A model generated the notes under the pieces. It saw only the letters and a program-made list of their open reading frames with translations, was not told the origin of the DNA and made no database searches. A program made the position numbers and the translations under genes. From Comamonadaceae bacterium (GTDB taxonomy: Bacteria; Pseudomonadota; Gammaproteobacteria; Burkholderiales; Burkholderiaceae_C): a DNA stretch of 64,000 nt. This document shows, piece by piece, positions 45,023 through 63,960 of the stretch. Position 1 is the first letter of the stretch, and the number at the start of each line of letters is the position of its first letter. Where the stretch lies: the NCBI GenBank assembly GCA_947452785.1, contig CANGDZ010000001.1:1-64000 (forward strand). The letters run 5' to 3'.

Positions 45023-45830
45023 TGCGTTCTCCAAAAGAGTTAAGAATGACTTCGCGCCCGTCGGCGATGTACCGCTGACCTGATATTTTCCGGGTCAGCG
45101 ATGGGCGCGATTATGTCTCTTTGGAATTCGTAACGGATGTATTTGTAAATCTTATATCGTATTTATTACATATTTTGATCAGGCAGCGCAGGACACGGGA
45201 TTAAGGGCCGGGGGTCGGCATTTGAGGTGGGTACGCCACCGGCGACTCCAGGCCCTAAGCGGTCATTACCCAATCCCAGCCACTTTTTCGAAACTCGATG
45301 AGCAGTCATTCGGAATGACTGCTTTGGTCACTTCCAGTGTGATTCCAGAACGCCAACCGTTGCCGCTGATTTAGACAGCCTCAAATATCCATTTCTTCCG
45401 ATATTTCCAAGGCGTCGTCCACATCAATTCCAAGACTCGGATTTGCTTGCAACGATCCAAAAAATCGCTGACATGTCCCTTGATTAGCATTTTGTTGATG
45501 CATGCGCCATGCCGGTTATGTCGCGCTACAAATGCTGTTTGTCCCATTGCGGCAATTCTGAGGCTGAGCGAGCGCCTGAAATACGGGGATTCTCGTGCCG
45601 GCCTTGGAAGCGAGCCACCGTCGGGTTGCGCTTTCATGTCGGCTTTGGTGAACCCTGCGCGCTGCTGAACTAACATCAAAAAACTTATTGCTAACCTTCT
45701 ATGTCGGTAAGTAGCTTTTTACAAGGTCAGTTTTGGTTTTTCAGTCGCGTTAGGCGTGGTTGGAAAATCTGCCTCCAAAACGGTTTTCCTCCATAGCAGT
45801 CATCGGGATTAAAACAGGATCACCTGATGA
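45023..45830. other. Long noncoding gap with structured sequence
   Basis: No gene is convincing here. The ORF at 45371–45679 has no recognisable motif. A composite hairpin runs from 45204 to 45256: AGGGCC pairs with GGCCCT, then GGGGTCG with CGACTCC (one G·T), and GGTGG with CCACC. A near-perfect palindrome, AGCAGTCATTC-G-GAATGACTGCT, lies at 45301–45323. The rest is unremarkable. Possible roles are a small RNA, a promoter region, or old mobile-element remains. Confidence 0.5.
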
Positions 45831-46619
45831 TTAACTTCCTTTGAAGACGGGTTTACGGCGCTCCATAAAAGCTGTCCGTCCTTCCAGAAAGTCTGCGCTT
45901 TTACTTGTGAGAAGCTGTCTTTCATGTATGACCCTCAAATCCATTTGGCTGGCCATGATTTCGTTCAAAGACTTTTTGGTTTCTTGCGTTGCCAGGGGAG
46001 CCAACGCGAGGATGTCTTGAGTTAATGATTCCAATTTGGAATGCCAATCATCCATGGTCAAGAATTCTTCAAACAAGCCTAGTTTTTCCAAATCTTGCCA
46101 CGTAAAAGGCCTCGCTGATAGAAAGGCTCGTTTTGTTGCCGAGACCCCAAAACGACTGATGTAACGCTGCAAACCGCTGGGATAGTAATGCAGGCCCAGT
46201 GCTGTCGCTGGCATGCGCCATTCAATGCCTTGCAAGCCAAGTCGAAGATCACAAGCCAACACCAAATCTGTGGCGCCCCCATACACGCTGCCATTTAAAG
46301 CACAAACTGTGACAGGCCTGAGGATGGCCAAAGCATCGGGCACTTTTTCAAATGGAGTTTTATCTTGGCTCATTTCACTGAACCCGCCAATGTCATACCC
46401 CGCACAAAAAACTGGCTTGGGTTGCCCTGATGTGTTGGCCGTCAGAAGCAAAACGCGCACATCGGCAGAACGATTAACAACTTCGAAGTGTTCCATTAAG
46501 GTTTTTAAATCGCTGTTTTCCAGTCGATTCCGTTGCGCCGGACGGTTCAGAGTAATGGTAGCAACACCGTCTGCAATCTGCAGGACCGGTGAGCTAGGGG
46601 AGGCAAAAAGATCTGACAT
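45831..46619 (-). CDS. Enoyl-CoA hydratase/isomerase family protein
   Basis: A 262-residue crotonase-fold protein. The oxyanion-hole segments are FCAGYDIGGFSEM (about residues 71–83) and ALNGSVYGGATDLVLACDLR (about 108–127). The usual hydratase Glu pair is not obvious, so hydration, isomerisation or retro-Claisen action cannot be chosen. It is the last gene of the minus-strand catabolic operon, 40 bp after the Bug gene. Confidence 0.85.
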   Translation of the reverse strand: MSDLFASPSSPVLQIADGVATITLNRPAQRNRLENSDLKTLMEHFEVVNRSADVRVLLLTANTSGQPKPVFCAGYDIGGFSEMSQDKTPFEKVPDALAILRPVTVCALNGSVYGGATDLVLACDLRLGLQGIEWRMPATALGLHYYPSGLQRYISRFGVSATKRAFLSARPFTWQDLEKLGLFEEFLTMDDWHSKLESLTQDILALAPLATQETKKSLNEIMASQMDLRVIHERQLLTSKSADFLEGRTAFMERRKPVFKGS

Positions 46620-46659
46620 TAGGGTTCGAAACTTTTAAAAAGGAAAAGGAAACCGAGTC

Positions 46660-47655
46660 TTAATCTTCGGGTGAGAAGCCGGAAAGTTTAACCATCTCAC
46701 CCCAACGATTCAGGTCCGACTGAAATTGTTGGGTGAACTCTTTCGCACTTTCACTGGCCGCTATTTCAAATGAGGCTTTGGCTAAGGCGTCTTGAAGTGG
46801 TCGTGCTTTCAGAGCTTCGCGCAAGGCAGCGTTCAAACGGGTGACCACATCACCAGAAGCTTTGGCTGGCAGAAACAGGCCGAACCATTCGACTGCTTGC
46901 GCAGCACGGTAGCCGGCCTCAGCCATGGTGGGTGTATCGGGCAGAGCAGTGCTCCGAACAGGACCACTGACAGCCAGTGCACGCAGCTTGCCCGAAACGA
47001 TGTGAGGCAATGCATTCGAGATGACGCCGACATTGGCCGCCACCTGACCTCCCAGTAGATCTGTCATGGCCGGTGCAGCGCCCTTATAGGCTACATGCAT
47101 CAATTCAATGTTTGCGGCTTTAGCCAGAGCCACTCCGGTGAAATGTGGGATTGAGCCAGCGCCGGATGAACCATAAGCGGCCAAAGTTGGATTGGCCTTG
47201 GCCCAAAGCACAAATTCACCCAGAGTTTTGACCGAAGCTGGTACTTGGGGGCCGATGGTGAAAACAAATTGGGCCGAACCCAACTTGCCCACGGGTGCAA
47301 AGTCTTGCAACGGTTGATAGCTCAGTTTGCGGTAAATATGCGGATAAACCACCATCATCGACGCGGGAGTCACAGCCAGTACCGAGCCATCGGCTTCTGC
47401 GCTTTTGAGCTGCTCCAGTGCAATACGTCCACCAGCACCAGGCTTGTTATCCACAATGACTTGTGTGCCGTAATTGCCCAGCTGCTGAGCCAATGCCCGG
47501 GCCAGCAAATCGGCTGAGCCTCCTGGCGGGAAACCCACCAAAATGCGCACTGTCTTGTTCAGAGTTTGCGCCTGAGCGTGGCCGCTCAGCGTCAATGCGC
47601 GGATGCCGGCCAGTCCAGCTGCAGCCAAAGTGAAGTTACGGCGCTTAACCATCAT
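46660..47655 (-). CDS. Bug/TctC-family periplasmic substrate-binding protein
   Basis: A 331-residue orphan TTT receptor. The signal peptide starts KRRNFTLAA, twin-arginine-like, and ends GHAQAQ near residue 30. Family marks are VRILVGFPPGGSADLLARAL, VDNKPGAGGRIALEQLKSAE, AAYGSSGAGSIPHF, and HVAYKGAAPAMTDLLGGQV. AGGAAA precedes the ATG. Its position in the operon suggests it binds an acid degraded by the pathway; the membrane partners must be elsewhere. Confidence 0.92.
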   Translation of the reverse strand: MMVKRRNFTLAAAGLAGIRALTLSGHAQAQTLNKTVRILVGFPPGGSADLLARALAQQLGNYGTQVIVDNKPGAGGRIALEQLKSAEADGSVLAVTPASMMVVYPHIYRKLSYQPLQDFAPVGKLGSAQFVFTIGPQVPASVKTLGEFVLWAKANPTLAAYGSSGAGSIPHFTGVALAKAANIELMHVAYKGAAPAMTDLLGGQVAANVGVISNALPHIVSGKLRALAVSGPVRSTALPDTPTMAEAGYRAAQAVEWFGLFLPAKASGDVVTRLNAALREALKARPLQDALAKASFEIAASESAKEFTQQFQSDLNRWGEMVKLSGFSPED

Positions 47656-47670
47656 GGTTTCCTGAAATAA

Positions 47671-48336
47671 TCACGCAGCCCAACCATACACTGACAAGCT
47701 GGTCTCGCCGGCTTGCAAGCGTTTACAGATTGCCGCTTCTTCTTGCTCGCGACGCACACCGGCGGCCACGACCTCAGCGGCCTTGGTCTGGGGAATCACC
47801 ACCACGCCATCGCCATCACCCACCACCAGATCACCCGCATGCACGGTGATGTCGCCGATCATGACCGGATGGTTGATCCAGCCTGTGGCGCCAAAGTCCT
47901 TGCCCGTGCCACGGATGCACAATCCCCGAGAAAACACAGGAAAGCCCATCTCGGCGATCAGTGCACCATCGCGCACACAAGCATCAATGACCAATCCAGC
48001 CAGGCCCCGTGTCTGCGCCATGGTGCCCATGATCTCGCCCCAGTAACCATGCTCGTAAGCGCCGTTGGCAAACACCACCATCACATCACCAGGCTGCGAA
48101 ATCGCCAGCGCACGATGCAACCACAGGTTGTCGCCGCCGGGTGAATGCACGGTGAGCGCCTGACCGCAGGTCTTGAAGTCGGCAGATACCGGCTTGATGG
48201 CCGAGGGCAACGCACCAATCTTCTTGCCTGCTTCATGCAACGTGGCTGTGGGCAGAGTACGCGCCTGTGCCAGCAGCGCTGCACTTAAACGAGGCACATC
48301 GGTGCGCGTGGTCAGCGCCGGGTTGACTTTGTTCAT
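47671..48336 (-). CDS. RraA/HMG-CHA aldolase-family protein (third of three)
   Basis: A 221-residue protein of the RraA fold, which includes 4-hydroxy-4-methyl-2-oxoglutarate and 4-carboxy-4-hydroxy-2-oxoadipate (CHA) aldolases. The key segment MAQTRGLAGLVIDACVRDGA retains the Arg-Asp pair needed for pyruvate enolate chemistry, and the C-terminal loop VGDGDGVVVIPQTKA is normal. The start overlaps the previous paralogue's stop by 4 bp. The low identity between copies suggests separate roles or mixed oligomers. Aldolase function is inferred from the neighbours; RraA-like RNase E inhibition is a less likely alternative here. Confidence 0.85.
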   Translation of the reverse strand: MNKVNPALTTRTDVPRLSAALLAQARTLPTATLHEAGKKIGALPSAIKPVSADFKTCGQALTVHSPGGDNLWLHRALAISQPGDVMVVFANGAYEHGYWGEIMGTMAQTRGLAGLVIDACVRDGALIAEMGFPVFSRGLCIRGTGKDFGATGWINHPVMIGDITVHAGDLVVGDGDGVVVIPQTKAAEVVAAGVRREQEEAAICKRLQAGETSLSVYGWAA

Positions 48337-48995
48337 TTCTCGCTCCGTGTTTGCAGTTGGTGGTACTTGAATTGTTTGCGTGCTTCATCCAGTCGCATAC
48401 CGCCTCGGGCAGCTGCGCGAATCTGGTTTTCTGCCGCCTCGATCTCTTCGGCCACATTCAGTACTTCATCCTCGTGTTCTTTAGGAATCACCACCACGCC
48501 GTCGGTGTCGCCCTTGAGGATATCGCCAGGGGCCACACGCGTCTCACCGATATTGACCGGAATGCCGGTGGCTTCGACCTGCACACGATCCTTGCCGGTG
48601 CGCATCCAACTGTCTTTGGAAAAGATGGGGTAGCCCAGAGTCAGGCACAGGTGCGTGTCGCGATTGATGCCGTTGATGACGGTGCCTGCGATGCCCCGGC
48701 GGTGCGCAATTTCGGTCAGGATGTCGCCCCACACGGTGCAGTCGTCGCGGCCGTTGTTGTCGAGCACGATGACACTACCCGGTGCCACATCGTCGATGTA
48801 ATCGCCCACCGTGCCGCAAGGCTTGCCTGCTGGGCCGTATTTGAGCGTCCAAGCGCGACCGGCCATACGAAATTCAGTGTCACGCGGCTTGATCTTGTAG
48901 CACTGGCCGATGATGCCCAGTTTGTCGAGCGCGTCCGACAAGGTAGCGGTGTCGAGTTTCGCGGCGCGTGCCACGTTGGTATCTTGAGTGCTCAT
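48333..48995 (-). CDS. RraA/HMG-CHA aldolase-family protein (second of three)
   Basis: A 220-residue paralogue. The active-site segment reads IAHRRGIAGTVINGINRDTH, keeping Arg-Asp but with Asn where the others have Asp or Gly. The N-terminal ATLSDALDKLGIIGQCYKI and LKGDTDGVVVIPKEHEDEVL are typical. The C-terminal helix (EEIEAAENQIRAAARGGMRL) is longer than in the third copy. Start ATG 48995, 3 bp after the first copy's stop. Confidence 0.85.
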   Translation of the reverse strand: MSTQDTNVARAAKLDTATLSDALDKLGIIGQCYKIKPRDTEFRMAGRAWTLKYGPAGKPCGTVGDYIDDVAPGSVIVLDNNGRDDCTVWGDILTEIAHRRGIAGTVINGINRDTHLCLTLGYPIFSKDSWMRTGKDRVQVEATGIPVNIGETRVAPGDILKGDTDGVVVIPKEHEDEVLNVAEEIEAAENQIRAAARGGMRLDEARKQFKYHQLQTRSEK

Positions 48996-48998
48996 TTT

Positions 48999-49682
48999 TC
49001 AGTTCTCCAGCATGTGTTCATAGTTGCCACCCATGACCTCGCCAATGGGTGTGCCTGACAAAATCGCTTTGGCCATGGCCGCTTCTTTGGCCACGATCAT
49101 CTCGGCGGCTTCGAGCACACGTTCGATGTGCTCGGGCGAGATGAAAATCACAGCGCTGCGGTCGCCCAGTACATAGTCGCCAGGGTGAACAACGACTTCG
49201 CCGCCCACTGTCGCGCCAATGGTCACCGGCACCTGCGTACCCAGCTCCACCACCCGGGTGCGTGCGGTGCGCGAGGTCAGGCTGCGGCTGTAAATCGGGA
49301 ACTCATAGGCGATGGCTTCATCCACATCACGCAGCGGGCCGTCGGCGATCACACCCGCCACGCCGCGCACTTTGGCGCCCAGCGTCAGCAAGCCGCCCCA
49401 GCAACCGGCCTCCACCCCCGACCGCTGCTCGACCACGATCACGTTATCAGCGCCCGACTCCTCGATGGCGGTACAGCCCAAGTGTTTGGTGGGACCCGCT
49501 GGCGGTGTGCCGGGCCCGACCTTCATGGTCACGGCACGGCCCGCGATGCGGCTTACGCCACCCGGGGCGCTGCTGCGCTGGGGCAAGCCGGTCACTACGC
49601 CTGGCAGTTGCAGTTTATCGAGAGCGTCAGAGACGGCGCACACATCGAGGCGACGCAGACGTAGAACTTGGGGATCGGTCAT
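48999..49682 (-). CDS. RraA/HMG-CHA aldolase-family protein (first of three)
   Basis: A 227-residue paralogue with the most canonical aldolase signature: GGLLTLGAKVRGVAGVIADG then PLRDVDEA, i.e. G-x20-R-D. VCAVSDALDKLQLPGVVTGL lies at the N-terminus, and DYVLGDRSAVIFISPEHIER at the end. ATG 49682 is chosen because it begins the family core; an open extension to 49790 overlaps the dioxygenase gene. It lies 23 bp after the ring-cleavage dioxygenase, fitting the order cleavage then aldol fission in gallate-type pathways. Confidence 0.86.
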   Translation of the reverse strand: MTDPQVLRLRRLDVCAVSDALDKLQLPGVVTGLPQRSSAPGGVSRIAGRAVTMKVGPGTPPAGPTKHLGCTAIEESGADNVIVVEQRSGVEAGCWGGLLTLGAKVRGVAGVIADGPLRDVDEAIAYEFPIYSRSLTSRTARTRVVELGTQVPVTIGATVGGEVVVHPGDYVLGDRSAVIFISPEHIERVLEAAEMIVAKEAAMAKAILSGTPIGEVMGGNYEHMLEN

Positions 49683-49705
49683 GTCAGAGGGTTCCGGATC
49701 AGGTT

Positions 49706-50707
49706 TTAAAAAATTGTTTTCCAGGCGGCAAAAGCCAAGCCCGTGCCGGTCAACGCAGGGGTGCGGTAACCGGGCACGTACTCGACCCATTCCAGATCGA
49801 GGTCTTTGGCCATTTCACCGACAACCAGCCAATTGCGGATTTCGGAGCTGCCCGCTTGCAGGCGCAGAGGGTCAAAGTCCGCCAGCGCCGCGCTGTCTTT
49901 GGTGCGGATGGCCGTCAGCACCTGTTGGTCGAGTTCCTCGTCCACCACAAAGTGACTCAGCCCCCCAGAAGCAATCACGCCCACCCGCAGGTCTTGCGGC
50001 CACAGCGCAATCAGCTCACGCAATGCTTTGCCCAAAGCCACACATCGGCGCGGCGTCGGCTGATTGGGTGGGTCAAAGGTGTTCAGGATCACCGGGATGA
50101 CTGGTAGTTCATGGCCCTTGAGTAATCGACGGTGAATGAACTGGAAAGCATGCCCTTCGGACTGCCCGGGCTCCAGACCGTCCATGGCAGCGATGTCAAA
50201 GTCACGGTCGCACAGCTGGCGAATCAGCCACTCAGCCAGATCGCTTTTGATGGGGTATTCGCGGTCCACTTCGGGCTCATGCCTCCACATGCGAGCGGTC
50301 TTGGGCCAGGGGTCATTCGGGGCGGCCGGTTCACGCGCCGTGTTGCGGATGGTGGGGCCATAAAAAATGGCCATGGCCGGGTTGTTGCTGGTGCGAAACA
50401 GCTCGGTTTGGTCATCACCCACGATCAGCAGAACGTCCAGACGAGCTGCCACGATGCGTTCGTGCAGGGCATCCATCGCGATCTGGCTGGCATCAAAGCG
50501 TTCGTCCATCTTCTCGGACGTGACCATGGCCTCTGTGCCCGGTGGCGCCGCCGCCAGCAACGCGTCGTAGTCGGTCTTTCGCCCTTGCTTATCGTAATAG
50601 TGCGCGTTTTTGGTGTCGATCACCTTGAAGCCGTGCTGCCAGTCTTCACGTTGCGATACCAGCATGATGCTGTGTGAAGAGCCAAATGCGGCGACGAGTT
50701 TTGCCAT
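49706..50707 (-). CDS. LigB-type (class III) extradiol ring-cleavage dioxygenase
   Basis: A 333-residue protein of the protocatechuate 4,5-dioxygenase catalytic subunit superfamily, which opens catechol-type rings with Fe(II). His12 in AAFGSSHSI fits the first metal ligand, and GVIASGGLSHFVVDEELD (about 243–260) is the conserved GGLSH block. Where many relatives have an Asn-Asp-His strand, this one reads IVGDDQTELF, and the other metal ligands cannot be placed by eye. No separate LigA-like small subunit is present. Ring cleavage is therefore likely but not certain. It sits between the CoA transferase and the first RraA gene. Confidence 0.8.
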   Translation of the reverse strand: MAKLVAAFGSSHSIMLVSQREDWQHGFKVIDTKNAHYYDKQGRKTDYDALLAAAPPGTEAMVTSEKMDERFDASQIAMDALHERIVAARLDVLLIVGDDQTELFRTSNNPAMAIFYGPTIRNTAREPAAPNDPWPKTARMWRHEPEVDREYPIKSDLAEWLIRQLCDRDFDIAAMDGLEPGQSEGHAFQFIHRRLLKGHELPVIPVILNTFDPPNQPTPRRCVALGKALRELIALWPQDLRVGVIASGGLSHFVVDEELDQQVLTAIRTKDSAALADFDPLRLQAGSSEIRNWLVVGEMAKDLDLEWVEYVPGYRTPALTGTGLAFAAWKTIF

Positions 50708-50731
50708 GGTGTTGTCTTTCTGCGTTACCGC

Positions 50732-51934
50732 TCAAACGACGAATTGGGTGCGCAGTTGCACAATTTGCTCTGCGCTGTAACCCAGGCCAGTCAGAATCGC
50801 ATCGGTCTGGTCACCCTGGTACGGCGCAGCTTTCATCGGACCTTCGTCGCGCGGATGACGCGAAAACTGCATCGGCAAGTTGACGACTTCGATTTCTCCT
50901 AAATCCGGGTGTTGCATCTTGCGGGCCATGCCCAGGTGCTTGACCTGCACATCGTCAAACATCTTGTCGATGCTGTAGATCGGCCCACAAGGCACTCCAG
51001 CTTTCAGCAAGATCTCAGTCCAGGCCGCCGTGGTGCGGGTTTTGAAGGCCGCACCGACGGCCGCGTTCACACGTAAACGGTTTTTTACCCGCTCGGGGTC
51101 CGAGCCAAAGCCCGGTTCGTCGATCAGCTGAGGCACCTCGAGTGCCACACACAAGCGCTTCCACATGTTTTGACCAATGGCCGCCAGGTTCAGGTAACCA
51201 TCGCTGGTTTCAAAAACGCCGGTGGGCACGGTCAAAGGGTGCTCGTTGCCGGTGGACTGGGGCACTTTGTGGTCAATCAGCCATTGCGCTGCCTGGAAGT
51301 CGAGCATGGCGATTTGAGATTCCAGCAGCGAGGTATGAACCCACTGGCCCTCGCCGGTGACTTCGCGCTCCAACAAAGCGGCCATGATGGCCTGAGCACA
51401 AAAATGCCCTGAACACAAATCGGCAATCGGAATGCCCGCACGCATCGGACCTTCACCGGGCTTGCCCGTCACACTCATCAGGCCGCCCATACCTTGCGCT
51501 ATCGAGTCAAATCCAGGCCAATTTGCGTAAGGGCCGTCCTGACCAAAACCTGAAATGCTGGCATAGACCAGCCGCGGGTTAATGCGGCGAAGTTCCTCTG
51601 GGCCAATGCCCAGGCGGTACTTCACGTCGGGACGGTAGTTCTCGATGAAGACATCGGCCTCTTTCACCAACTGTTCCAAAATGGCCTTGCCCTCAGGCTC
51701 TTTCATGTTGAGCGTCAGGCTTTCTTTATTGCGATGCAGGTTTTCGTAGTCTGCGCGGTTGTGGTCACGGCTACCGATCATGTCGTCACCTCCGGGCGCA
51801 CCGGGGGGTATTTCGAGTTTGATCACGCGTGCGCCCAAATCGGCGAATGTGCGAATAGCCGTGGGACCCGCTCGTACCCGCGTGGCATCCAATATGGTGA
51901 AGCGCGACAGAGGGCCCTTGCGTTCAGTGTTCAT
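50732..51934 (-). CDS. CaiB/BaiF-type (class III) CoA-transferase
   Basis: A 400-residue CoA-transferase that moves CoA between acids. Family marks are the start FTILDATRVRAGPTAIRTFA, the stretch HRNKESLTLNMKEPEGKAIL, and the active-site segment IPIADLCSGHFCAQAIMAAL with the catalytic Asp. The C-terminal VVNLPMQFSRHPRDEG is normal. ATG 51934 has AAGGA upstream. It lies between the DUF35 and LigB genes, so it probably activates a pathway acid to a CoA thioester. Confidence 0.9.
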   Translation of the reverse strand: MNTERKGPLSRFTILDATRVRAGPTAIRTFADLGARVIKLEIPPGAPGGDDMIGSRDHNRADYENLHRNKESLTLNMKEPEGKAILEQLVKEADVFIENYRPDVKYRLGIGPEELRRINPRLVYASISGFGQDGPYANWPGFDSIAQGMGGLMSVTGKPGEGPMRAGIPIADLCSGHFCAQAIMAALLEREVTGEGQWVHTSLLESQIAMLDFQAAQWLIDHKVPQSTGNEHPLTVPTGVFETSDGYLNLAAIGQNMWKRLCVALEVPQLIDEPGFGSDPERVKNRLRVNAAVGAAFKTRTTAAWTEILLKAGVPCGPIYSIDKMFDDVQVKHLGMARKMQHPDLGEIEVVNLPMQFSRHPRDEGPMKAAPYQGDQTDAILTGLGYSAEQIVQLRTQFVV

Positions 51935-51945
51935 AGGTGGATCCT

Positions 51946-52326
51946 TCAAACAGGCGTGAACATGGGCACGGCGTGGCCACCTTCGGTGGGCTGGAAAACC
52001 ACGCGAACTTTCTGACCAATATTGACTTTCTGAGGATCACAATCGACCAAATTAGTCATGACTGTAATGCCCTCATCCAGCGTGACATAGGCCATGGTGT
52101 AGGCGGCATCGTCTTTGCCCATGGTGCTGAATGAATACACCACACCGGTGCCGGGCGAGTCTTGCCAGACGGTGTCGACGCTCAGGCAAAACGGGCAAAT
52201 GTCACGCGGGTAATGGTGCACCTGACCGCAGCTCTGGCATTTTTTGACCAGATAGCGACCTTCGTCAGCGGCTTGCCAGAAAGGCAACGACTCGGGCAGC
52301 ACGCGAGGGGCTGAAATTTTTCTCAT
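51946..52326 (-). CDS. Zn-ribbon/OB-fold DUF35 protein, thiolase partner
   Basis: A 126-residue DUF35 protein. The N-terminal helix (PESLPFWQAADEGRYLVKKC) leads to the rubredoxin-like zinc ribbon, C-QSC-G…DICPFC (two CxxC pairs), then an OB fold. In steroid catabolism DUF35 domains bind acyl-CoA and pair with thiolase-like aldolases. Here its gene follows the thiolase-like gene by 2 bp. ATG 52326 is used; the earlier TTG (52332) is not needed. Confidence 0.9.
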   Translation of the reverse strand: MRKISAPRVLPESLPFWQAADEGRYLVKKCQSCGQVHHYPRDICPFCLSVDTVWQDSPGTGVVYSFSTMGKDDAAYTMAYVTLDEGITVMTNLVDCDPQKVNIGQKVRVVFQPTEGGHAVPMFTPV

Positions 52327-52328
52327 GG

Positions 52329-53546: not shown

Positions 53547-53584
53547 TAAAATTTCCTTTACGTGTAACTGAAGTCAATGCGCCA

Positions 53585-54568: not shown

Positions 54569-54605
54569 TTTTATCTCCATTAATTCTGAATGACGTGTTG
54601 AAAAC

Positions 54606-55739: not shown

Positions 55740-55748
55740 GTCTGTCTT

Positions 55749-56942: not shown

Positions 56943-56949
56943 GTCCGTC

Positions 56950-59109
56950 TCACTTCACTCGTGCCACGACCAGGGCATCCAACGCCAGCGCGGGAATGGC
57001 GGAACCCAGCGGGTAGGCTACCAAGGGGTTGATGTCGATTTCTGTAATGTTGGGATTGGCCAGCATTTGCGCGCCCACTTGTGCTACCACGCGGGCAATG
57101 GCTTTAACATCGACCGCTGCTGCGCCGCGAATGCCTTGCAGCATTACGGCGGCTTTGAGGCGGGTCAGCTCGACGAGGATGTCCTCTTCGGCCATGTCGG
57201 CAGGAATCAGACGTACGTCCTTGAGCGCTTCAATCCAGATGCCCCCCAAGCCGACCAGTACGACGGGCCCCCAGTCCTCGTCGCGTTTGGCACCCACCAC
57301 CAGCTCAAGCCCACGCGACCCCATGGCTTCGACCAGCGCGCCATCCAGTACCAGCTCGGGGCGGTGGTGTTTCACGCTGGCGAACAGCTTCTCCCACCCG
57401 GCGCGCAGCGCAGCTTCGTCGGCCAAGCCCACCAGTACGCCGCCCACATCGCTCTTGTGCGGCAGTTCACTGGCTTGCGCTTTGAGCACGACCGGAAAGC
57501 CAATCCGCTGGGCCACACTGACGGCTTGATCGACCGTTTGAGCCAATGCGCCATGCGGCACCGCAAGGCCTGCTTTGGCCAGCCAGGCTTTGCCTTGATA
57601 TTCAGCAAAGATGCCGTTGGGCGGCACGGCGCCGGGCAATGGAATCGCCTGGTTTGTGGTGGTCTGTGCACGTGTCGCACGCTGCAAGGCTTCACCGTAT
57701 TGCGCAACACGGCGCATAGCACGCAAGGCGCGATCTGCCGAACGAAACAAGGGCACACCGCTTTGCTGAATCGCCTCCAAAAAGAAAGGCTCCACGGGAC
57801 TGCTGTCACCGGTCAACACCAGCACGGCAGGTTTGGTGGCTTTACCTATGGTGGGGATGATGTGGTCAGCTTTGTCCCGCTGGGCCATAGTGGGGCCGAC
57901 AGGAATAGCCAGCACAATGTTGCCGATGCGCTCGTCATCCAGCATGGTGAGCAGCAACTCGCCAATCAGGCCAGGCTGGCGGATGCCGATGGTGGTGTAG
58001 TCCAGTGGGTTCTCGGCCACGGCGTAAGCAGGCAGCATAGCCGTGAGTTGGTTCACCGTGGCGGTCGTCAACTCGGGCAAATCCAGACCCAGATCATCCG
58101 CAAAGTCCAGTGCAATATTCTTCATCGCGCCTGAGCCAGTCATGAATGCGGTTCCTCCGACAGGTGGGTGCGGGTAGCGCAGCAGCACCACCGTGGTGTC
58201 GAGCAATTCATCGAGCGACTCCACCACCACAACCGCCTCGCGCAGCAAGAGAGCCGTGGCAGTGGCGTGGTCACCAGCCAATGCGCCGGTGTGCGACTGC
58301 GCGGCCTCGCGGGCTCGTGCACTTCGTCCGGGCATCAACAACACCAGTGGTTTGCCAGCGGCGCGCGCCTGGGCGGCCAGTTTCAAAAAGACCTGGGGGC
58401 GGCGGATCTGCTCCACATACACAGTGATCACGCGTGTTTGCGTATCGCCGATCAGTGCGGCCAGCACGTCTTCAACGCATACCGACACCTCGTTACCTGT
58501 CGAAAACACTGTGGTTACTGGCACGCCTCGACCCAAATAAGCATCGCGCAGGTTGGCCGCCATAAAGCCACTTTGCGCCACCACGCCCACACCGGGACGT
58601 GTTTCAGGCTCGCGCGCAACCAAAGGCTCAAACGTGACCGGAATGCCTGCAGCCAGGTTGGTGAACCCCATGCAATTGGGACCCACCAGCAAGATCCCCA
58701 CTTCTTGAGCCACACGCGCGAGTTCAGCCTGCTTGTGCTGACCTTTCTCTCCAGCCTCTGCGTAACCCGATGCAAAAAGTACGGCCGCCTTGCAATGACG
58801 AGCAGCCAAAGCCTTCACTGCGTCCAGTACGCCCGACTCGGGAATGGCCAACACAGCCAGATCAATGCCTTGAGGAAGTTCATCCACCGTTTTGACACAA
58901 GGACGGCCATTGATTTCTTCGCTACTGCGGCTGATCAAGTGCAAATCACCACGGTAGCCAAAACGTTCCAAATTGCCCTGCACAAAACCACCAAACGAAC
59001 GTGGGTCTGCAGAGGCCCCCACGATCACGATGGAACGTGGATGGATGATGTGATGTACATCCTGAACGCCATTCATGGCATCCGCAGGCAAGGCGGTCGA
59101 GTGGGACAT
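56950..59109 (-). CDS. ADP-forming acyl-CoA synthetase (acetate--CoA ligase-like), fused subunits
   Basis: About 719 residues, the length of fused ADP-forming acyl-CoA synthetases. The N-terminal CoA-binding domain has IHPRSIVIVGASADPRSFGG. The succinyl-CoA-ligase-like middle has AAQSHTGALAGDHATATALL with the catalytic His. The C-terminal ATP-grasp domain has AKAGLAVPHGALAQTVDQAV and KAQASELPHKSDVGGVLVGL. It makes an acyl-CoA from an acid and ATP, or the reverse. ATG 59109 is chosen because the upstream extension to 59307 is AT-rich intergenic DNA. First gene of the minus operon, divergent from the GntR gene. Confidence 0.87.
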   Translation of the reverse strand: MSHSTALPADAMNGVQDVHHIIHPRSIVIVGASADPRSFGGFVQGNLERFGYRGDLHLISRSSEEINGRPCVKTVDELPQGIDLAVLAIPESGVLDAVKALAARHCKAAVLFASGYAEAGEKGQHKQAELARVAQEVGILLVGPNCMGFTNLAAGIPVTFEPLVAREPETRPGVGVVAQSGFMAANLRDAYLGRGVPVTTVFSTGNEVSVCVEDVLAALIGDTQTRVITVYVEQIRRPQVFLKLAAQARAAGKPLVLLMPGRSARAREAAQSHTGALAGDHATATALLLREAVVVVESLDELLDTTVVLLRYPHPPVGGTAFMTGSGAMKNIALDFADDLGLDLPELTTATVNQLTAMLPAYAVAENPLDYTTIGIRQPGLIGELLLTMLDDERIGNIVLAIPVGPTMAQRDKADHIIPTIGKATKPAVLVLTGDSSPVEPFFLEAIQQSGVPLFRSADRALRAMRRVAQYGEALQRATRAQTTTNQAIPLPGAVPPNGIFAEYQGKAWLAKAGLAVPHGALAQTVDQAVSVAQRIGFPVVLKAQASELPHKSDVGGVLVGLADEAALRAGWEKLFASVKHHRPELVLDGALVEAMGSRGLELVVGAKRDEDWGPVVLVGLGGIWIEALKDVRLIPADMAEEDILVELTRLKAAVMLQGIRGAAAVDVKAIARVVAQVGAQMLANPNITEIDINPLVAYPLGSAIPALALDALVVARVK

Positions 59110-59187
59110 GGGATAAAAAACCTTGTAACAAATCAGAATTAGAAATTTTGCACACCACGGAGCTTTATTTCTTAATTTAAATTTGAT

Positions 59188-59200
59188 TCTGGCATACAAA
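59188..59200 (-). promoter_or_regulatory. Candidate GntR half-site, minus-operon side
   Basis: On the minus strand this reads TTTGTATGCCAGA, 79 bases upstream of the CoA ligase-like start. It matches TTTGCATGCCACA at 59418 with two differences. Pairing of the same motif with both divergent promoters suggests an operator for the GntR-family regulator encoded at 59456. Confidence 0.45.
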
Positions 59201-59417
59201 AACATATATATCAATACACCACAAGCGAATTTCACAGGCTTTAAGGGTTTATACCGATCGTCTGCAAAAGTATCGCAAAGAACCATAACGCCAGTTCTTA
59301 ATAGCAAGAAAAGACACTATTTATAAAAAAATCATTTAATAACAATAGCTTGTATGATTTTAGTTCAAGGAAAAGCATGGCCTAAAACGGAATTCATCCT
59401 GATTTCTTGAAATTTTA

Positions 59418-59430
59418 TTTGCATGCCACA
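59418..59430 (+). promoter_or_regulatory. Candidate GntR half-site, plus-operon side
   Basis: TTTGCATGCCACA, ending 26 bases before the GntR start codon, the partner of the minus-strand copy at 59188. Its GCATGC core is palindromic. Position between promoter and start fits autoregulation. Confidence 0.45.
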
Positions 59431-59455
59431 GATGATTTGTTGCATAATTAAATCC

Positions 59456-60208
59456 ATGAACACGCCTAACTCTTCCCCTCCCATCGAAAACATCGACTTA
59501 GAAGGCAACTTGATCGCTGAAGAAAGCCGTCCACGGGGTGGACGAGCCAACGAAATTCGCAATGTTTTGCAAGAAGAGATTGAAAGCGGCAACCTGCAGC
59601 CAGGTACAACCTTGGATGAGCGCGCTTTGGCCGCGCGCTTCAATGTGTCTCGCACTCCCGTGCGCGAAGCACTGCAACAACTGGCCGCACGTGAACTGGT
59701 GCGCATTGCTCCGCGCCAAGGTGTCACAGTTTCGCGCCTGACCATCAGTCAGGTTCGGTCCATCATGGAATCGGTGGGTGAACTTGAAGCCCTGTGCGCC
59801 AAACTAGCTGCACGCCGTGTTGATGATGCGTTGCGCAAAGCTCTGGATAAGGCCATAGAACGCTGCCAGGACGCGGCGGTGCAAGGCGGACACGCTGAAT
59901 ACTCCATGGCTAACACCTATTTTCATGAAACAATTTACTCAGCAAGTCGCAATCCCTATTTGGCGGATTTGATTCGCAACGCCCGTCGTCAAATCCAGCG
60001 CTACCGCATTCGTGACTTTCAAACCAAAACACAAATCAGCAAATCGCTGAAAGAGCACCAACAGGTTGCTCGCGCCATCCAAGATGGCGATGAATCCTTG
60101 GCCGCTAGTGCGATGTTGTTGCATGTACCTTCAGGTTCGAGCGGGTTTTCTGAATTTTTGGCACGCATGCCCATGAGCTTCTTTGAGACTGATGCGGCGG
60201 ACCACTGA
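59456..60208 (+). CDS. GntR-family regulator, FCD (FadR-like) subfamily
   Basis: A 250-residue transcription regulator. The winged helix includes TLDERALAARFNVSRTPVRE then ALQQLAARELVRIAPRQGVT. The C-terminal FCD domain is all-helical, with a likely metal/ligand site around ANTYFHETIYSASRNPYL and LKEHQQVARAIQDGDESLAA. Such regulators respond to acids or CoA thioesters. Placed exactly between the divergent operons it is the obvious local regulator. The start ATG 59456 is preferred over 59423, which lies in the control region. Confidence 0.9.
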   Translation: MNTPNSSPPIENIDLEGNLIAEESRPRGGRANEIRNVLQEEIESGNLQPGTTLDERALAARFNVSRTPVREALQQLAARELVRIAPRQGVTVSRLTISQVRSIMESVGELEALCAKLAARRVDDALRKALDKAIERCQDAAVQGGHAEYSMANTYFHETIYSASRNPYLADLIRNARRQIQRYRIRDFQTKTQISKSLKEHQQVARAIQDGDESLAASAMLLHVPSGSSGFSEFLARMPMSFFETDAADH

Positions 60209-60237
60209 ACAACCTTCCTTGAACTTTGGATTCCTTC

Positions 60238-60633
60238 ATGACTTCATCTCAACGCTCCCTCGACATTCCTGGAGCTGGCCACAACGCCCCGATCCCCTTA
60301 GGTGCCCGCGTTGGTCCGCTGATTTGCTCCTCCGGCATTTCAGGCAAGGATCCCGCTACAGGGCAATTACCCGCCGACCCATCCTTGCAAGTGCGCATGG
60401 CGTTTGCCAACATGGACGCGCTACTGGCGGCTGGCGGTGCCACCTTGGCCCATGTGGCCAAGCTGCACATCACCTTGAAAGACAACGCCGCCAGGGAAGC
60501 CATCAACACCGAGTGGCTGTCGCGATTTCCTGACCCACTAGACCGACCCGCACGGCACATCGTGTTGCAGGACCTGCAACACGGCATGGTGCTCCAGCTT
60601 GAAGTCACCGCCTTTGTCACACCGGCTTTGTGA
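60238..60633 (+). CDS. RidA/YjgF-family enamine deaminase-like protein
   Basis: A 131-residue RidA-fold protein, trimeric in the family. Recognisable parts are LGARVGPLICSSGISGKDPA and PDPLDRPARHIVLQDLQHGM, with the conserved Arg in RPARHIV and the C-terminal LQLEVTAFVTPA. RidA proteins hydrolyse reactive enamines or imines, and some degrade pathway intermediates. ATG 60238 begins the core. The amidohydrolase starts 20 bp after its stop. Confidence 0.85.
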   Translation: MTSSQRSLDIPGAGHNAPIPLGARVGPLICSSGISGKDPATGQLPADPSLQVRMAFANMDALLAAGGATLAHVAKLHITLKDNAAREAINTEWLSRFPDPLDRPARHIVLQDLQHGMVLQLEVTAFVTPAL

Positions 60634-60653
60634 AGCCTCACAGAAAGACCCCC

Positions 60654-61658
60654 ATGATCATTGATTCCCACGCCCACCTTGTCATGCCCCCCGAGAGCTT
60701 CCGCTTCATGGCCGAACTCATCGGTGGCCGAGCCAACCCTAATACCTTGCCCAAAATACCTGAAGCCTCGGTGCGCAAAGCCGCCGAGGAGCTGGTGCGG
60801 TCCATGGACTCGGTGGGAACTGATATTCAGTTCATCTCGCCACGCCCCTATTTGCAGATGCATTCGGTCAAGCCCGGTCGCGTGACCGAGCTGTGGTCCA
60901 TCCACTGCAACAACCTGATTGCCGAATTCGTCAAGATGTTCCCAGACCGTTTTCGTGGCGTGGCCGGTTTGCCGCAGTACATGGACGAAGCGCTTGATGT
61001 GCGGGCCATCCCCGAGCTGCGCCGCTGTGTCAACGAATTGGGTTTTGTGGGCTGCTTGATCAACCCGGACCCCACGGAAGGCGCTGGGCCCACACCGCCA
61101 GGCCTGGGCGATCCCTTTTGGCATCCGCTTTACAACGTCATGACCGAACTCGACGTACCAGGCCTGATCCATTCCGCAGGCAGCTGCAGCGCGCGCGAGT
61201 CGTACACGCTCAAATTCATCAACGAAGAGAGCATTGCCATCATCTCACTGCTGGGTGCCAAAACGTTCGATCAGTACCCGAACTTGAAGATCGTGGTCGC
61301 CCATGGTGGTGGCGCCATTCCGTACCAGATGGGCCGTTTCCGGTCGTGGACCGTACGCAAAGGCGACAAGGAAACTTTCGACGAACAACTCAAGAAGCTG
61401 TACTTCGACACCTGCAACTACAGCAAGGAAGCCATTGAGCTTTTGCTCAAAGTGGCCGGCACTGACAACGTTTTATTTGGCACTGAAAAGCCCGGCACCG
61501 GCAGCTCTCGCGACCCGATCAGTGGCCGCGACTACGACGATATGAAGCCGGTGATTGAGAGCATCGAGTGGCTGACCGAAGCGCAAAAGGCCGACATCTT
61601 TGAATGCAACTGCCGCCGCGTATATAGCAAAGCTTTTCGCACCGACGAACAGTGCTGA
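60654..61658 (+). CDS. LigJ-like amidohydrolase (putative 4-oxalomesaconate hydratase)
   Basis: A 334-residue amidohydrolase-2 protein. The metal-site start is MIIDSHAHLV (His6, His8). Later come NEESIAIISLLGAKTFDQYP, LKIVVAHGGGAIPYQMGRFR, TCNYSKEAIELLL, and a closing DNVLFGTEKPGTGSSRDP. The pattern FDTC…DNVLFGTE and YDDMKPVIESIEWLT recalls LigJ, which hydrates 4-oxalomesaconate to CHA in protocatechuate and gallate degradation. ATG 60654 begins the metal motif; GTG 60630 is possible. Related decarboxylases (ACMSD type) are the main alternative. It would supply substrate for the RraA-type aldolases. Confidence 0.8.
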   Translation: MIIDSHAHLVMPPESFRFMAELIGGRANPNTLPKIPEASVRKAAEELVRSMDSVGTDIQFISPRPYLQMHSVKPGRVTELWSIHCNNLIAEFVKMFPDRFRGVAGLPQYMDEALDVRAIPELRRCVNELGFVGCLINPDPTEGAGPTPPGLGDPFWHPLYNVMTELDVPGLIHSAGSCSARESYTLKFINEESIAIISLLGAKTFDQYPNLKIVVAHGGGAIPYQMGRFRSWTVRKGDKETFDEQLKKLYFDTCNYSKEAIELLLKVAGTDNVLFGTEKPGTGSSRDPISGRDYDDMKPVIESIEWLTEAQKADIFECNCRRVYSKAFRTDEQC

Positions 61659-61681
61659 CCCCCTGACTCTTAGGAAACACC

Positions 61682-62917
61682 ATGGCACTGAGCAAAGAAG
61701 ACAACGAACTGTTGACCCGTGTTGAACATGGCGCCCCGATGGGCGAAATGGTCCGCCAGCATTACTGGCTGCCCGCCGTGCCCTCCATCAAACTGGAAGC
61801 CGATGGTGCGCCCGTGCGCATCCGTTTGCTGGGCCAGAACTTCATCGCTTTTCGGGTGACCGACGGCACGGCCGGGGTGATTGACGAGCAGTGCCCGCAC
61901 CGCAAAGCCTCGTTGGCGCTGGGCCGTAACGAAGACAACGGCATCCGCTGCCTGTACCACGGCTGGAAATTCAACGTGAAAGGCGAAGTGACCGAGGCGC
62001 CCAACCACGCCGGTGACCAGACGCAGTTTTGCAAGCATGTGCGCATCAACCGCTACACCACGGTGGACCGAGGCGGTATCGTCTGGGTCTGGCTGGGCAC
62101 AGGCGAGACACCGCCGCCATTCCCTGCATTGCCGTTTGTGGATTTGCCCGTACACCAGCGCTCAGTGACCAGCGTGGAAGTGCCCACCAATTGGGTGCAA
62201 GGCGTTGAGGCTTCCATGGACTCTTCGCATGTGGGCGTGCTGCACGAATCGACCACTCAACTGACGTCCGGCGGCGGCAACGAACGCATGCTGATGACCA
62301 AGGCACTGGCCCCTAAGCTGGAATTTGAAGACCGTCCCTACGGTTACCGCTATGCTGCACTGCGCAGCTTGCCCGATGACAAGGTCTATGCCCGGGTCAA
62401 CAACTTCGTGATGCCCTGGTTTGGCATCATTTGTCCGCCCGACGCCAACGGCCCGACCACGGTGTTTTTCTCCACCCCGGTGGACGATGTGACGCACCGC
62501 GCCTGGTTTGTGCACTACAACCCGCACCGCGATTTAGGCATGACCGTGATGTCAGCCTCGCCCGATGTGTGGAACTTTCCGCCGCTGCCGCCCGGTGAGG
62601 CCAAAGACAACTGGGGTCAGAACCGCGACATCATGAAGCGTGGACATAAAACCGGCTTTCCGCAGCATCTGGGCACAGAAGATTTTGCAATGTTTTTGAG
62701 CCAGGGCCCGACCTATGACCGCACCGATGAGCAACTGTGCTCGGCTGATGGAGCCGTAATCCGTGTGCGGCAGTTGCTGATTAAGGCAGCCAAAGAGTTC
62801 ATTGAAGGTAAGGCACCAACGCTGGCATACCACCCTGAGCTGAACTACCCGAGCATTCAGTCAGTAGGCGGCGTTGTGGTCGCAGGCACAGACTGGCGCA
62901 CGCTGGCCGACAAATGA
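61682..62917 (+). CDS. Rieske ring-hydroxylating oxygenase, alpha subunit (phthalate dioxygenase-like)
   Basis: A 411-residue Rieske oxygenase of the phthalate 4,5-dioxygenase (Pht3)/demethylase group. The Rieske ligands are Cys71 and His73 (CPHR), Cys90 and His93 (CLYHGWKF). The mononuclear iron site is near residues 180–188, DSSHVGVLH (His183, His188). AGGAAA precedes the ATG. Such enzymes add two hydroxyls to a ring or remove methyl groups from methoxy aromatics. No reductase partner is seen up to the window edge. Confidence 0.9.
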   Translation: MALSKEDNELLTRVEHGAPMGEMVRQHYWLPAVPSIKLEADGAPVRIRLLGQNFIAFRVTDGTAGVIDEQCPHRKASLALGRNEDNGIRCLYHGWKFNVKGEVTEAPNHAGDQTQFCKHVRINRYTTVDRGGIVWVWLGTGETPPPFPALPFVDLPVHQRSVTSVEVPTNWVQGVEASMDSSHVGVLHESTTQLTSGGGNERMLMTKALAPKLEFEDRPYGYRYAALRSLPDDKVYARVNNFVMPWFGIICPPDANGPTTVFFSTPVDDVTHRAWFVHYNPHRDLGMTVMSASPDVWNFPPLPPGEAKDNWGQNRDIMKRGHKTGFPQHLGTEDFAMFLSQGPTYDRTDEQLCSADGAVIRVRQLLIKAAKEFIEGKAPTLAYHPELNYPSIQSVGGVVVAGTDWRTLADK

Positions 62918-62988
62918 ACCGCAACAGGTTCCGCACGCAGAAGGCGGACCTAACTCCCCTAAACAGGCCCCGTACACCGGAGACAAGC

Positions 62989-63960
62989 ATGCCCATTTCA
63001 CGACGACAAATGCTACTGGCAAGCAGTACTTTGCTGGCACCCGCACTGAGCAGGGCGCAGGACAAGCCGACCATCCGTATCCTGATGGGCTTGCCACCTG
63101 GGGGCGGCACCGACTCGATCGCCCGTTACATCGCCGAAAAATTGCGCGAACAATTGGGCCAACCGGTGATCATTGAAAGCCGCGTGGGCGTGGGTGGACG
63201 CCTGGCCGCCGATGCGCTGATGAACGCCAACCCCGACGGCCTGACTTACATGATTGCGCCGAACGCCACGCCGACTTTTCAGACGCTGGTATTTGGCCCG
63301 CAACTCAAATGGAACATCTGGCGCGACTTTGCGCCGGTTGCCGGTCTGGTGTCCTACCCGCTGGGCATGGCAGTGAACGCCGATCTGGGTGTGAAAAACG
63401 CCAAGGAATTTGTGCAGTGGGTCAAAGCCAACCCTGGCAAAGCCAGCTTTGGCACCCCCGGAACAGGCGGCCAGAACCACTTTTTGGGTGTTCAGTTTGC
63501 CAAACTCGCCGGCATTGACCTGCCCATGGCCCCTTACAAGGGCACCCCTCCCATGATCACCGACCTGCTGGGAGGACATGTACCCTCGGGCATCTCGCTG
63601 ATGGACGAACTGATCAAGCATCAGAGAACTGGCAAGCTGCGCGTGATCGGCATTTTCAGTGACAAGCGCTCAGAGATGATGCCCGACATCCCGACCTTCG
63701 CCGAGCAGGGCTTTGCGGTTTCGTCCGGCGACGGTTGGACAGCCATGTGGGCCCCCGCCAAAACGCCACAGTCAGAAATCGCGCGCGTGCAGCAGGCTGT
63801 GCAGAAAATTTTGGCCAACCCGCAAGTCAAGGACTTTCTGATGACGCGCTTGGCGGTTGAGCCCCACTATCGCAGCGCCGAAGAGATGGCCAAAGCCCAA
63901 CGCGAGGAGCTCGCCACCTGGGAGCCCATCATCAAGGCTTCGGGCTTCAAGGCTGAGTGA
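62989..63960 (+). CDS. Bug/TctC-family periplasmic substrate-binding protein
   Basis: A 323-residue orphan TTT receptor. The signal peptide MPISRRQMLLASSTLLAPAL is twin-arginine-like, cut near SRAQ. Family marks: IRILMGLPPGGGTDSIARYI, IIESRVGVGGRLAADALMNA, SFGTPGTGGQNHFLGVQFAK and MAPYKGTPPMITDLLGGHVP. ATG 62989 has GGAG just upstream, so the longer open frame from 62914 is rejected. It lies 71 bp after the Rieske gene and probably collects an aromatic or other organic acid. Confidence 0.92.
   Translation: MPISRRQMLLASSTLLAPALSRAQDKPTIRILMGLPPGGGTDSIARYIAEKLREQLGQPVIIESRVGVGGRLAADALMNANPDGLTYMIAPNATPTFQTLVFGPQLKWNIWRDFAPVAGLVSYPLGMAVNADLGVKNAKEFVQWVKANPGKASFGTPGTGGQNHFLGVQFAKLAGIDLPMAPYKGTPPMITDLLGGHVPSGISLMDELIKHQRTGKLRVIGIFSDKRSEMMPDIPTFAEQGFAVSSGDGWTAMWAPAKTPQSEIARVQQAVQKILANPQVKDFLMTRLAVEPHYRSAEEMAKAQREELATWEPIIKASGFKAE

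Follow-up and report, generated by a model that had tools for sequence, protein, structure and literature searches.

A conserved catabolic gene island of Burkholderiales, likened to DDVA-type ring fission joined to a steroid-type CoA side-chain module

The first 64,000 nucleotides of a Comamonadaceae contig (assembly GCA_947452785.1, contig CANGDZ010000001.1, here C1; this stretch is hereafter the window) contain, at positions 45831–63960, a gene island that is a real, conserved, and apparently undescribed catabolic unit. Based on Pfam and TIGR models, thirteen genes lie on the minus strand (45831–59307) and five on the plus strand (59423–63960), around a GntR/FCD regulator. This is the arrangement given in a preliminary description of the sequence, whose gene families also stand, save for the corrections below. 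The best explanation of the gene content is a likeness to two known systems: ring fission of the type found in the 5,5'-dehydrodivanillate (DDVA) pathway of Sphingobium (Parasphingobium) SYK-6, with LigX-, LigZ-, and LigY-like enzymes, appears joined to a steroid-type CoA side-chain module. Because some defining features of each were not found, we assign the island to neither the DDVA pathway nor the Ltp2/Sal family.

The reading we favor, tentatively and at a little less than even confidence, is that the island is one regulon of divergent operons around the GntR/FCD regulator, which would degrade a carboxylated, ring-substituted aromatic acid by CoA-dependent side-chain trimming followed by LigZ/LigY/RraA cleavage. 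The mix of meta-cleavage and CoA chemistry is itself not new, being found in ibuprofen and steroid pathways. The preliminary description knew of no pathway with this exact set, and none came up among the open-licence papers listed, judged by titles and the starts of abstracts, though a description beyond these may exist. Most characterized lignin-dimer pathways come from two sphingomonads, with a few recent ones from elsewhere, according to the review PMC12997858. The conserved set in cultured Cupriavidus, Paraburkholderia, and Variovorax provides directly testable candidates for the degradation of condensed aromatics.

Conservation and linkage of the island

Scanning named genomes with an alignment of LigZ-like proteins yielded 235 relatives, and the cluster counts below rest on the best 80 of these. 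Genes for the Ltp, DUF35, CaiB, and LigZ-like proteins occur together in 58 of the 80 loci, and in all 58 clusters the eleven minus-operon genes, where present, keep one order on one strand; two clusters (L025, L089) carry a further, diverged Ltp or CaiB gene on the opposite strand. The island is thus not a chance assembly, and the claim of one conserved island mixing meta-cleavage with CoA-thioester chemistry is borne out by the synteny check that had been proposed for it. Contig and flank ends cut many loci, so counts of single genes in the 58 clusters are lower bounds: RraA3 and RraA2 were found in at least 56, RraA1 and the acyl-CoA dehydrogenase (ACAD) gene ACAD1 in at least 55, ACAD2 in at least 53, the CoA ligase in at least 47, GntR in at least 46, RidA in at least 44, and the solute-binding protein TctC2 in at least 39. 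An enoyl-CoA hydratase (ECH) gene follows the RraA genes or LigZ in at least 52, while TctC1 is matched in 5, at variable positions. GntR is divergent in 46 of 46 clusters and RidA in 43 of 44, with Acidocella as the one exception. Clustering of neighboring open reading frames gave many antisense frames, and the families used are those named by Pfam.

On the plus-strand side, a LigY homologue (72–89% identity) adjoins the CoA-linked cluster in 13 of 13 chosen genomes; the one in L031 was assigned by position, 4.5 kb past the fetched end. Twelve extended loci from these genomes all encode Rieske1, ECH2, and 3-hydroxyacyl-CoA dehydrogenase (3HCDH), with the reductase in 11 of 12 (33–87% identity), TctC3 in 9 of 12, and a short-chain dehydrogenase/reductase (SDR) and Rieske2 in place in 5 of 12 each. 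Hosts include Cupriavidus, Paraburkholderia, Burkholderia, Variovorax, Ramlibacter, Hydrogenophaga, Polaromonas, Azohydromonas, Malikia, Caldimonas, Limnohabitans, and the alphaproteobacterium Acidocella aquatica, and many carriers are water, soil, or plant-associated bacteria. The distribution is rare and patchy: LigZ was matched in 6 of 300 genomes of the order (at 1e-20) and 11 of 299 of the family (at 1e-90), and Ltp in 9 of 90 of the genus (at 1e-100), five of these at 91% identity or more (one partial), the window genome included.

That two unrelated pathways merely stand side by side, a LigZ/LigY/RraA core next to a separate CoA pathway, would account for the core being found without CoA genes in Bradyrhizobium, Rhodococcus, and Aminobacter. 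We consider this quite improbable, as the CoA and LigZ/RraA genes form a single same-strand run in all 58 clusters, which span different genera and include Acidocella, and the divergences of CoA and core proteins correlate: pairwise distances of seven island proteins give r of 0.51–0.94 over 46 loci, values obtained with no housekeeping control genes.

Ring-fission enzymes and the ring-fission core

The amidohydrolase-superfamily protein of the island (60630–61658, plus strand) had been described as a LigJ-like hydratase, an identification that does not hold. It scores 269 bits with SYK-6 LigY (5vn5, its best PDB match) and 219 bits with LigJ, is 44% identical to the former and 37% to the latter, and has the SPRP, TLxF..EE, and E.PG.G motifs in common with LigY. 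A small tree places LigJ (6dwv) and a LigJ-like protein from contig C8 of the same genome in a clade of their own (support 1.000), with the window protein outside it; the branching of the LigY-like groups relative to each other has low support (0.075). The metal-site pattern HxH, His, Glu is present, with H14, H16, H181, and E286 aligned with LigY. These residues, which we take to be the metal ligands, are conserved in 29 of the 30 loci at or above 55% identity (some genes among them represented twice), and the 30th does not cover the first two. Judged by its sequence, the enzyme is a LigY-like meta-cleavage-product hydrolase and not LigJ-like. The product of SYK-6 LigY is reported as 4-carboxy-2-hydroxypenta-2,4-dienoate (CHPD; PMC6874591).

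This result bears on the gallate/protocatechuate ring opening originally proposed, which would run through LigB, LigJ, and LigK. The LigB fold of the dioxygenase is consistent with it, as is RraA1 (47671–48336, minus strand), which passes one model for aldolases of 4-hydroxy-4-methyl-2-oxoglutarate (HMG) and 4-carboxy-4-hydroxy-2-oxoadipate (CHA) (NF006731, 183.4 bits; cut-off 179). However, the hydrolase groups away from LigJ, RraA1 reaches 156 bits with the ligK model TIGR02798 (cut-off 304.5), and C8 carries genuine protocatechuate 4,5-cleavage genes: LigA (TIGR02792, 234.6 bits; cut-off 108.6), a LigB subunit, and LigK (TIGR02798, 407.7 bits; cut-off 304.5), beside a LigJ-like gene 64% identical to LigJ. 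We therefore rejected this pathway as the function of the island and regard it as very improbable. What the island shares with protocatechuate 4,5-cleavage (LigAB, LigJ, LigK) is a LigB-fold enzyme with an RraA-fold aldolase; unlike that pathway, it has LigY in place of LigJ and no LigA subunit. A second LigA-type subunit gene is located outside the C8 set, at C26:3709–3969.

The LigZ-like dioxygenase (49706–50707, minus strand; PF02900, 1.2e-11) is the putative class III extradiol enzyme of the island. Its AlphaFold2 model (mean pLDDT 92.6) best matches gallate dioxygenase DesB and LigAB (TM 0.62–0.64 over the query), confirming the LigB fold. H12, H252, and E289 are kept, while the second metal His of class III enzymes aligns with Gln100, so the two metal histidines and glutamate of the class are not found together and membership is assigned by fold. 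H12, the place of Gln100, and E289 are presumably the metal-ligand positions. Gln occupies position 100 in 102 of 107 covering alignments, a set in which some genes appear twice. Of the five exceptions, one is L120 and four are second proteins of LigB type, with PDH (L018 and L093 represent a single gene). The best 80 loci are biased towards Gln because one of the two search patterns contained GDDQ. Among LigZ-like sequences found by other routes (14 of 17, some of them close relatives), Gln stands in 13 of 14 and His in L120.

Two further sets occur on contig C14 of the same genome. One is a second copy of the island spanning Rieske2 to LigZ, at 79–93% amino-acid identity, with SDR, 3HCDH, ECH2, and reductase genes farther out (83–90%). 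The other, module B (locus L013, C14:34901–54900, and L014), is a third and different LigZ/LigY/Rieske set. It encodes a CoA ligase, an ECH, a Rieske protein (47% identical to Rieske1), a peptide-type ABC transporter, LigZ-like (36%) and LigY-like (43%) proteins, FAH, a cupin, TctC, an FAD monooxygenase, HMGL, and CaiB, and then RraA3, RraA2, and RraA1, which are 90–94% identical to the window RraA genes; ACAD, a DUF35–3HCDH fusion, and Ltp adjoin it divergently. C14 could be a contaminating contig (assembly contamination is 4.08%); against this, another genome of the genus (G758) also has both a 94% and a 66% Ltp copy.

The module B LigZ-like enzyme also has Gln at the metal-His place, and its LigY partner, 66% identical to SYK-6 LigY, is the most like that enzyme. 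For this reason the LigZ-like clade is probably active with Gln at this site. The Gln-for-His substitution, together with the recurring RraA types and RidA, poses sharp enzymological questions.

Rieske1 (61682–62917, plus strand; PF19301, 6e-31, and PF00355) contains a Rieske motif and D-x2-H-x4-H and is a predicted LigXa-type oxygenase. Its best solved relatives are 7fjl and 7fhr, one of them annotated as phthalate 4,5-dioxygenase. A LigXa-type Rieske protein, a LigB-fold dioxygenase, and a LigY-type hydrolase form one gene group both in the island and in the SYK-6 DDVA pathway, and a CHPD-type product would be expected of the island as well. Unlike the SYK-6 genes, the island also carries within the unit a CoA side-chain module together with genes for GntR, RidA, and RraA proteins. 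It has one Fer2-type reductase, whereas the accounts of SYK-6 in PMC12997858 and PMC6874591 give a separate LigXc ferredoxin and LigXd reductase, and it has Bug proteins, with no transporter of the DdvT or DdvK type described there among its annotated genes. A different DDVA route, with mhq genes, is reported in Paenibacillus (PMC12673573).

Next to RraA1 lie RraA2 (48333–48995; PF03737, 1.7e-34) and RraA3 (48999–49682; PF03737, 5.8e-27), also on the minus strand. The RraA3 reading frame is open to 49790; its start is probably 49682, which removes an 85-bp overlap with the dioxygenase gene. All three proteins contain the Arg-Asp motif, in which we presume the Asp to have a role. In HMG/CHA aldolase a role is reported for Arg-123, and RraA-fold enzymes of this kind cut HMG to two pyruvates (PMC5065237). 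Counterparts stand beside LigZ/LigY genes in Aminobacter (three types), Rhodococcus koreensis (three), and Bradyrhizobium (types 2 and 3). LigK of C8 falls in the type 1 clade as well, and the Aminobacter member of that clade is nearer to it than to RraA1. A recent tandem duplication was rejected, as the three copies represent three subfamilies that recur elsewhere.

RidA (60226–60633, plus strand) scores below the cut-off of TIGR00004 (29.2 bits, 8.4e-07), while its C14 copy matches PF01042 (1.5e-14). It adjoins the RraA genes in Bradyrhizobium (L102) and Rhodococcus (L103), and none was detected in the Aminobacter stretch (L105). L086 has LigZ, RidA, LigY, and RraA3 and lacks every other gene queried. 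LigZ–LigY linkage is also found in diverged copies: module B, L019, the alphaproteobacterial Rieske–LigY–LigZ groups L119 and L120, and the Bradyrhizobium, Rhodococcus, and Aminobacter plasmids. Since LigZ/LigY/RraA groups occur in Rhodococcus as well as Bradyrhizobium, the ring-fission core is present in two phyla.

Several of these groups have features of their own. The plasmid stretches (L102 12079–15993, L103 14252–22075, and L105 10928–14994) encode LigZ, LigY, and two or three RraA types, with P450s, a CoA synthetase, or a 4-hydroxybenzoate 3-monooxygenase nearby. L019 (9280–17750), a diverged group from the order, encodes an RraA3-type protein, a LigZ-like protein, a Rieske2-type protein (61%), and a LigY 66% identical to that of module B. 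L119 has a class II aldolase (PF00596, 723–1463) between LigY and the Rieske gene, where RraA might be expected.

The CoA module and the proposed pathway

ACAD1 (54606–55739) and ACAD2 (55749–56942), both on the minus strand, score best with the PimD and PimC models, respectively, below their cut-offs (TIGR03203, 311 bits, cut-off 652.7; TIGR03204, 385 bits, cut-off 623.9). The best PDB match of ACAD2 is 4x28_A, which we take to be a mycobacterial heteromeric steroid ACAD. In ACAD2 the candidate catalytic Glu247 lies within a GHERTG motif, while ACAD1 has Ala at this place and no counterpart of the YxGT motif; assuming that these are the two catalytic-Glu positions, neither is filled in ACAD1. 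The pair resembles heteromeric ACADs in having a candidate Glu in one member, and such enzymes are reported to have one active Glu per pair (PMC8399759).

The Ltp-type protein (52329–53546, minus strand; PDB relatives 4u4e, 9myr, and 6ok1) is a predicted retro-aldolase. The principal evidence is an alignment of 59 distinct homologues with CtSal (assumed to be chain 9myr, in which the YDCY motif is present), Ltp2 (6ok1), and the thiolase 7yvy, in which the thiolase Cys aligns with Gly82 of Ltp and with a Gly of CtSal, and Tyr298 (in Y298-D-S-F) aligns with the catalytic Tyr302 of CtSal and Tyr294 of Ltp2. All 59 homologues have Gly82, Tyr298, Ser300, and His349. In this protein, called thiolase-like in the preliminary description, the nucleophile place is thus taken by Gly, and a conventional thiolase was rejected as less likely given Gly82 and the aldolase-type Tyr298. 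The second catalytic residue of Ltp2 or Sal was not found in Ltp, where His349 is opposite Ltp2 Tyr344 and Ser300 is at the place of Sal Cys304. YDSF with His349 is a third arrangement beside YDHF/Tyr (Ltp2) and YDCY/Gln (Sal).

The DUF35 partner (51946–52332, minus strand; PF01796 and PF12172) resembles the ChsH2 C-terminus and has a zinc-ribbon pattern of Cys32, 35, 46, and 49. An adjacent ACAD pair, a thiolase-fold protein with Gly for the nucleophile, and a DUF35 partner are thus common to the island and the steroid/bile-acid cassette (Scd/ChsE ACAD pair, Sal/Ltp2 with DUF35). The island differs in its YDSF/His349 arrangement, in the linked aromatic ring-cleavage core, and in its hydratases, which are crotonase-type ECHs, no MaoC domain being detected among the proteins scanned. 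ECH1 is encoded at 45831–46619 (minus strand; PF00378, 4.4e-30). CoA esters could be formed by a CaiB-type (family III) CoA transferase (50732–51949, minus strand; PF02515, 4e-115) or by an NDP-forming acyl-CoA ligase (56950–59307, minus strand; PF13549, PF13607, and PF13380; best PDB match 4-hydroxybutyrate-CoA ligase), whose start is probably 59109 or 59076.

Genes found in some clusters only bear on where the CoA chemistry acts. A GMC oxidoreductase and/or an aldehyde dehydrogenase is present in 15 of the 58 clusters, preceding Ltp in eight and following ECH1 in six, and, for the aldehyde dehydrogenase of Acidocella, about 6 kb downstream; a 4HBT-type thioesterase is present in 30, after ECH1 or after the aldehyde dehydrogenase. 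Conversion of an alcohol to an acid at entry and hydrolysis of an acyl-CoA at the end are the main reason for placing CoA chemistry before ring cleavage. In SYK-6, phenylcoumaran alcohol is reported to be oxidized by the GMC-family enzymes PhcC and PhcD (PMC11323797), the likeness being one of family.

It is also conceivable, if rather unlikely, that the CoA chemistry follows ring cleavage: LigZ and LigY would free an aliphatic or alicyclic R-COOH, to be activated by the ligase or CaiB and broken down by ACAD, ECH, 3HCDH, and Ltp in the manner of the steroid pathway. This would fit the best scores of the ACADs with PimC/PimD models, the completion of beta-oxidation by 3HCDH and two ECHs, and the occurrence of a CoA ligase near LigZ without the rest of the CoA module (Rhodococcus L103; L099 and L101). 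Against it, the 4HBT thioesterase suits release of an aroyl acid, and in module B the FAD monooxygenase, cupin, and FAH could take the R-COOH, beside the CoA ligase, ECH, and divergent ACAD, Ltp, and DUF35–3HCDH, so that the CoA part would fall to an earlier step.

A logic like that of ibuprofen degradation appears less probable still. There, CoA ligase, dioxygenase, retro-aldolase, and extradiol enzyme are reported to act in that order (PMC9195938), and in the island Rieske1 would attack an aryl-CoA ester, with retro-aldol removal of the side chain by Ltp–DUF35 yielding a catechol for LigZ. The ipf pathway, as described, and the island share a CoA ligase, Rieske-type oxygenase, thiolase-like retro-aldolase, and extradiol dioxygenase, and the near-constant presence of Rieske1 and its reductase in the extended loci agrees with such a route. 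However, it gives no role to the ACAD pair, the two ECHs, or 3HCDH; these genes, LigY, and RraA set the island apart from ipf, and Rieske1 is of the LigXa type.

Returning to side-chain trimming before ring fission, we propose each reaction, the order of reactions, and the substrate from gene families, residues, conservation, and linkage. The substrate would be taken up with TctC-type proteins, and in copies that carry them a GMC oxidase and an aldehyde dehydrogenase would convert an alcohol on the side chain into the acid. The NDP-forming ligase or the CaiB transferase would make the CoA ester. ACAD1/ACAD2, as one heteromeric enzyme, would desaturate the side chain, the crotonases would hydrate it, and 3HCDH and/or the Ltp–DUF35 pair would remove an acetyl-CoA-type unit. 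A 4HBT thioesterase or CaiB would free the shortened aromatic acid, which Rieske1 and its reductase could hydroxylate or O-demethylate to a 5-substituted 3,4-dihydroxybenzoate. The LigZ-like dioxygenase would cleave the ring beside the substituent, and the LigY-like enzyme would hydrolyze the product to R-COOH and CHPD. Hydration of CHPD to HMG, with RidA as a tautomerase, is our own suggestion.

The preliminary description held the substrate to be unpredictable, a limit that the enzyme set overcomes in part, for a class and not for a named compound: it suggests, at no more than moderate confidence, a carboxylated aromatic acid that bears a side chain and is substituted at ring position 5. A possible source, and the class that we think likeliest, is a condensed lignin unit (5-5' type) still carrying its phenylpropanoid side chain.

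Several observations weigh against this pathway. Both kinds of accessory gene (GMC/aldehyde dehydrogenase and 4HBT) occur together in 2 of 58 clusters, the window copy has neither, and choline-dehydrogenase models are the closest in score to the GMC protein. A single simple route does not accommodate both 3HCDH and an aldolase-type Ltp, which occur in the same cluster. Cys80, two residues before Gly82, is present in 57 of 59 Ltp homologues, and in a smaller alignment of five sequences the thiolase Cys is opposite Thr78, which leaves some probability, if a low one, of thiolase activity in Ltp. CtSal is reported to be inactive when YDCY is changed to YDSY (PMC12329534); the window Ltp, with YDSF, would therefore use a third arrangement or catalyze another reaction. 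Gln100 could mean an altered or inactive metal site, and Rieske1 could be a ring dioxygenase instead of an O-demethylase. No LigW-type decarboxylase was found among the cluster genes scanned, the search not extending to the genome, and we know of no role for RidA in such a pathway. LigZ-like genes are also not tied to the ring-fission core everywhere. In 12 of the 22 loci outside the 58 clusters (L083, L084, L085, L087, L088, L090, L091, L092, L093, L095, L097, and L098), some with short flanks, LigZ stands without LigY, RidA, or RraA in the flank. L094, L096, L099, and L101 have RidA but no LigY in the flank (L094 and L096 also have RraA3), and the relative on pCAR3 (L106) lacks LigY, RidA, and RraA in its flank.

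A wider proposal, doubtful as it stands, is that of a so far unreported pathway, spread by horizontal transfer, with which Burkholderiales and some Alphaproteobacteria would consume condensed (5-substituted) lignin-type units that retain a propanoid side chain. It would couple CoA side-chain cleavage of the steroid type with ring fission of the DDVA type. The core (LigZ, LigY, RidA, and three RraA subfamilies) would be portable and shared with Actinomycetota, and the dioxygenase clade would work with a His/Gln/Glu metal site, unlike that usual for class III enzymes.

Regulator, uptake genes, and island ends

The regulator (59423–60208, plus strand; PF00392 and PF07729) is divergent to the CoA-ligase operon. 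A search for operators between the divergent operons gave weak inverted repeats and nothing stronger. Three Bug-type solute-binding proteins are encoded: TctC1 (46660–47655, minus strand; PF03401, 4.7e-60), TctC2 (53585–54580, minus strand; PF03401, 1.2e-53), and TctC3 (62914–63960, plus strand; PF03401, 1.1e-57). The plus-strand operon continues about 5.2 kb beyond the window (C1, ~64036–69226) with Rieske2, a reductase with a C-terminal Fer2 domain, ECH2, 3HCDH, and SDR, all on the plus strand. On the left stand genes for a DEAD/DEAH helicase (42236–44104) and a mechanosensitive channel protein (44207–45034), which place the island boundary near 45831.

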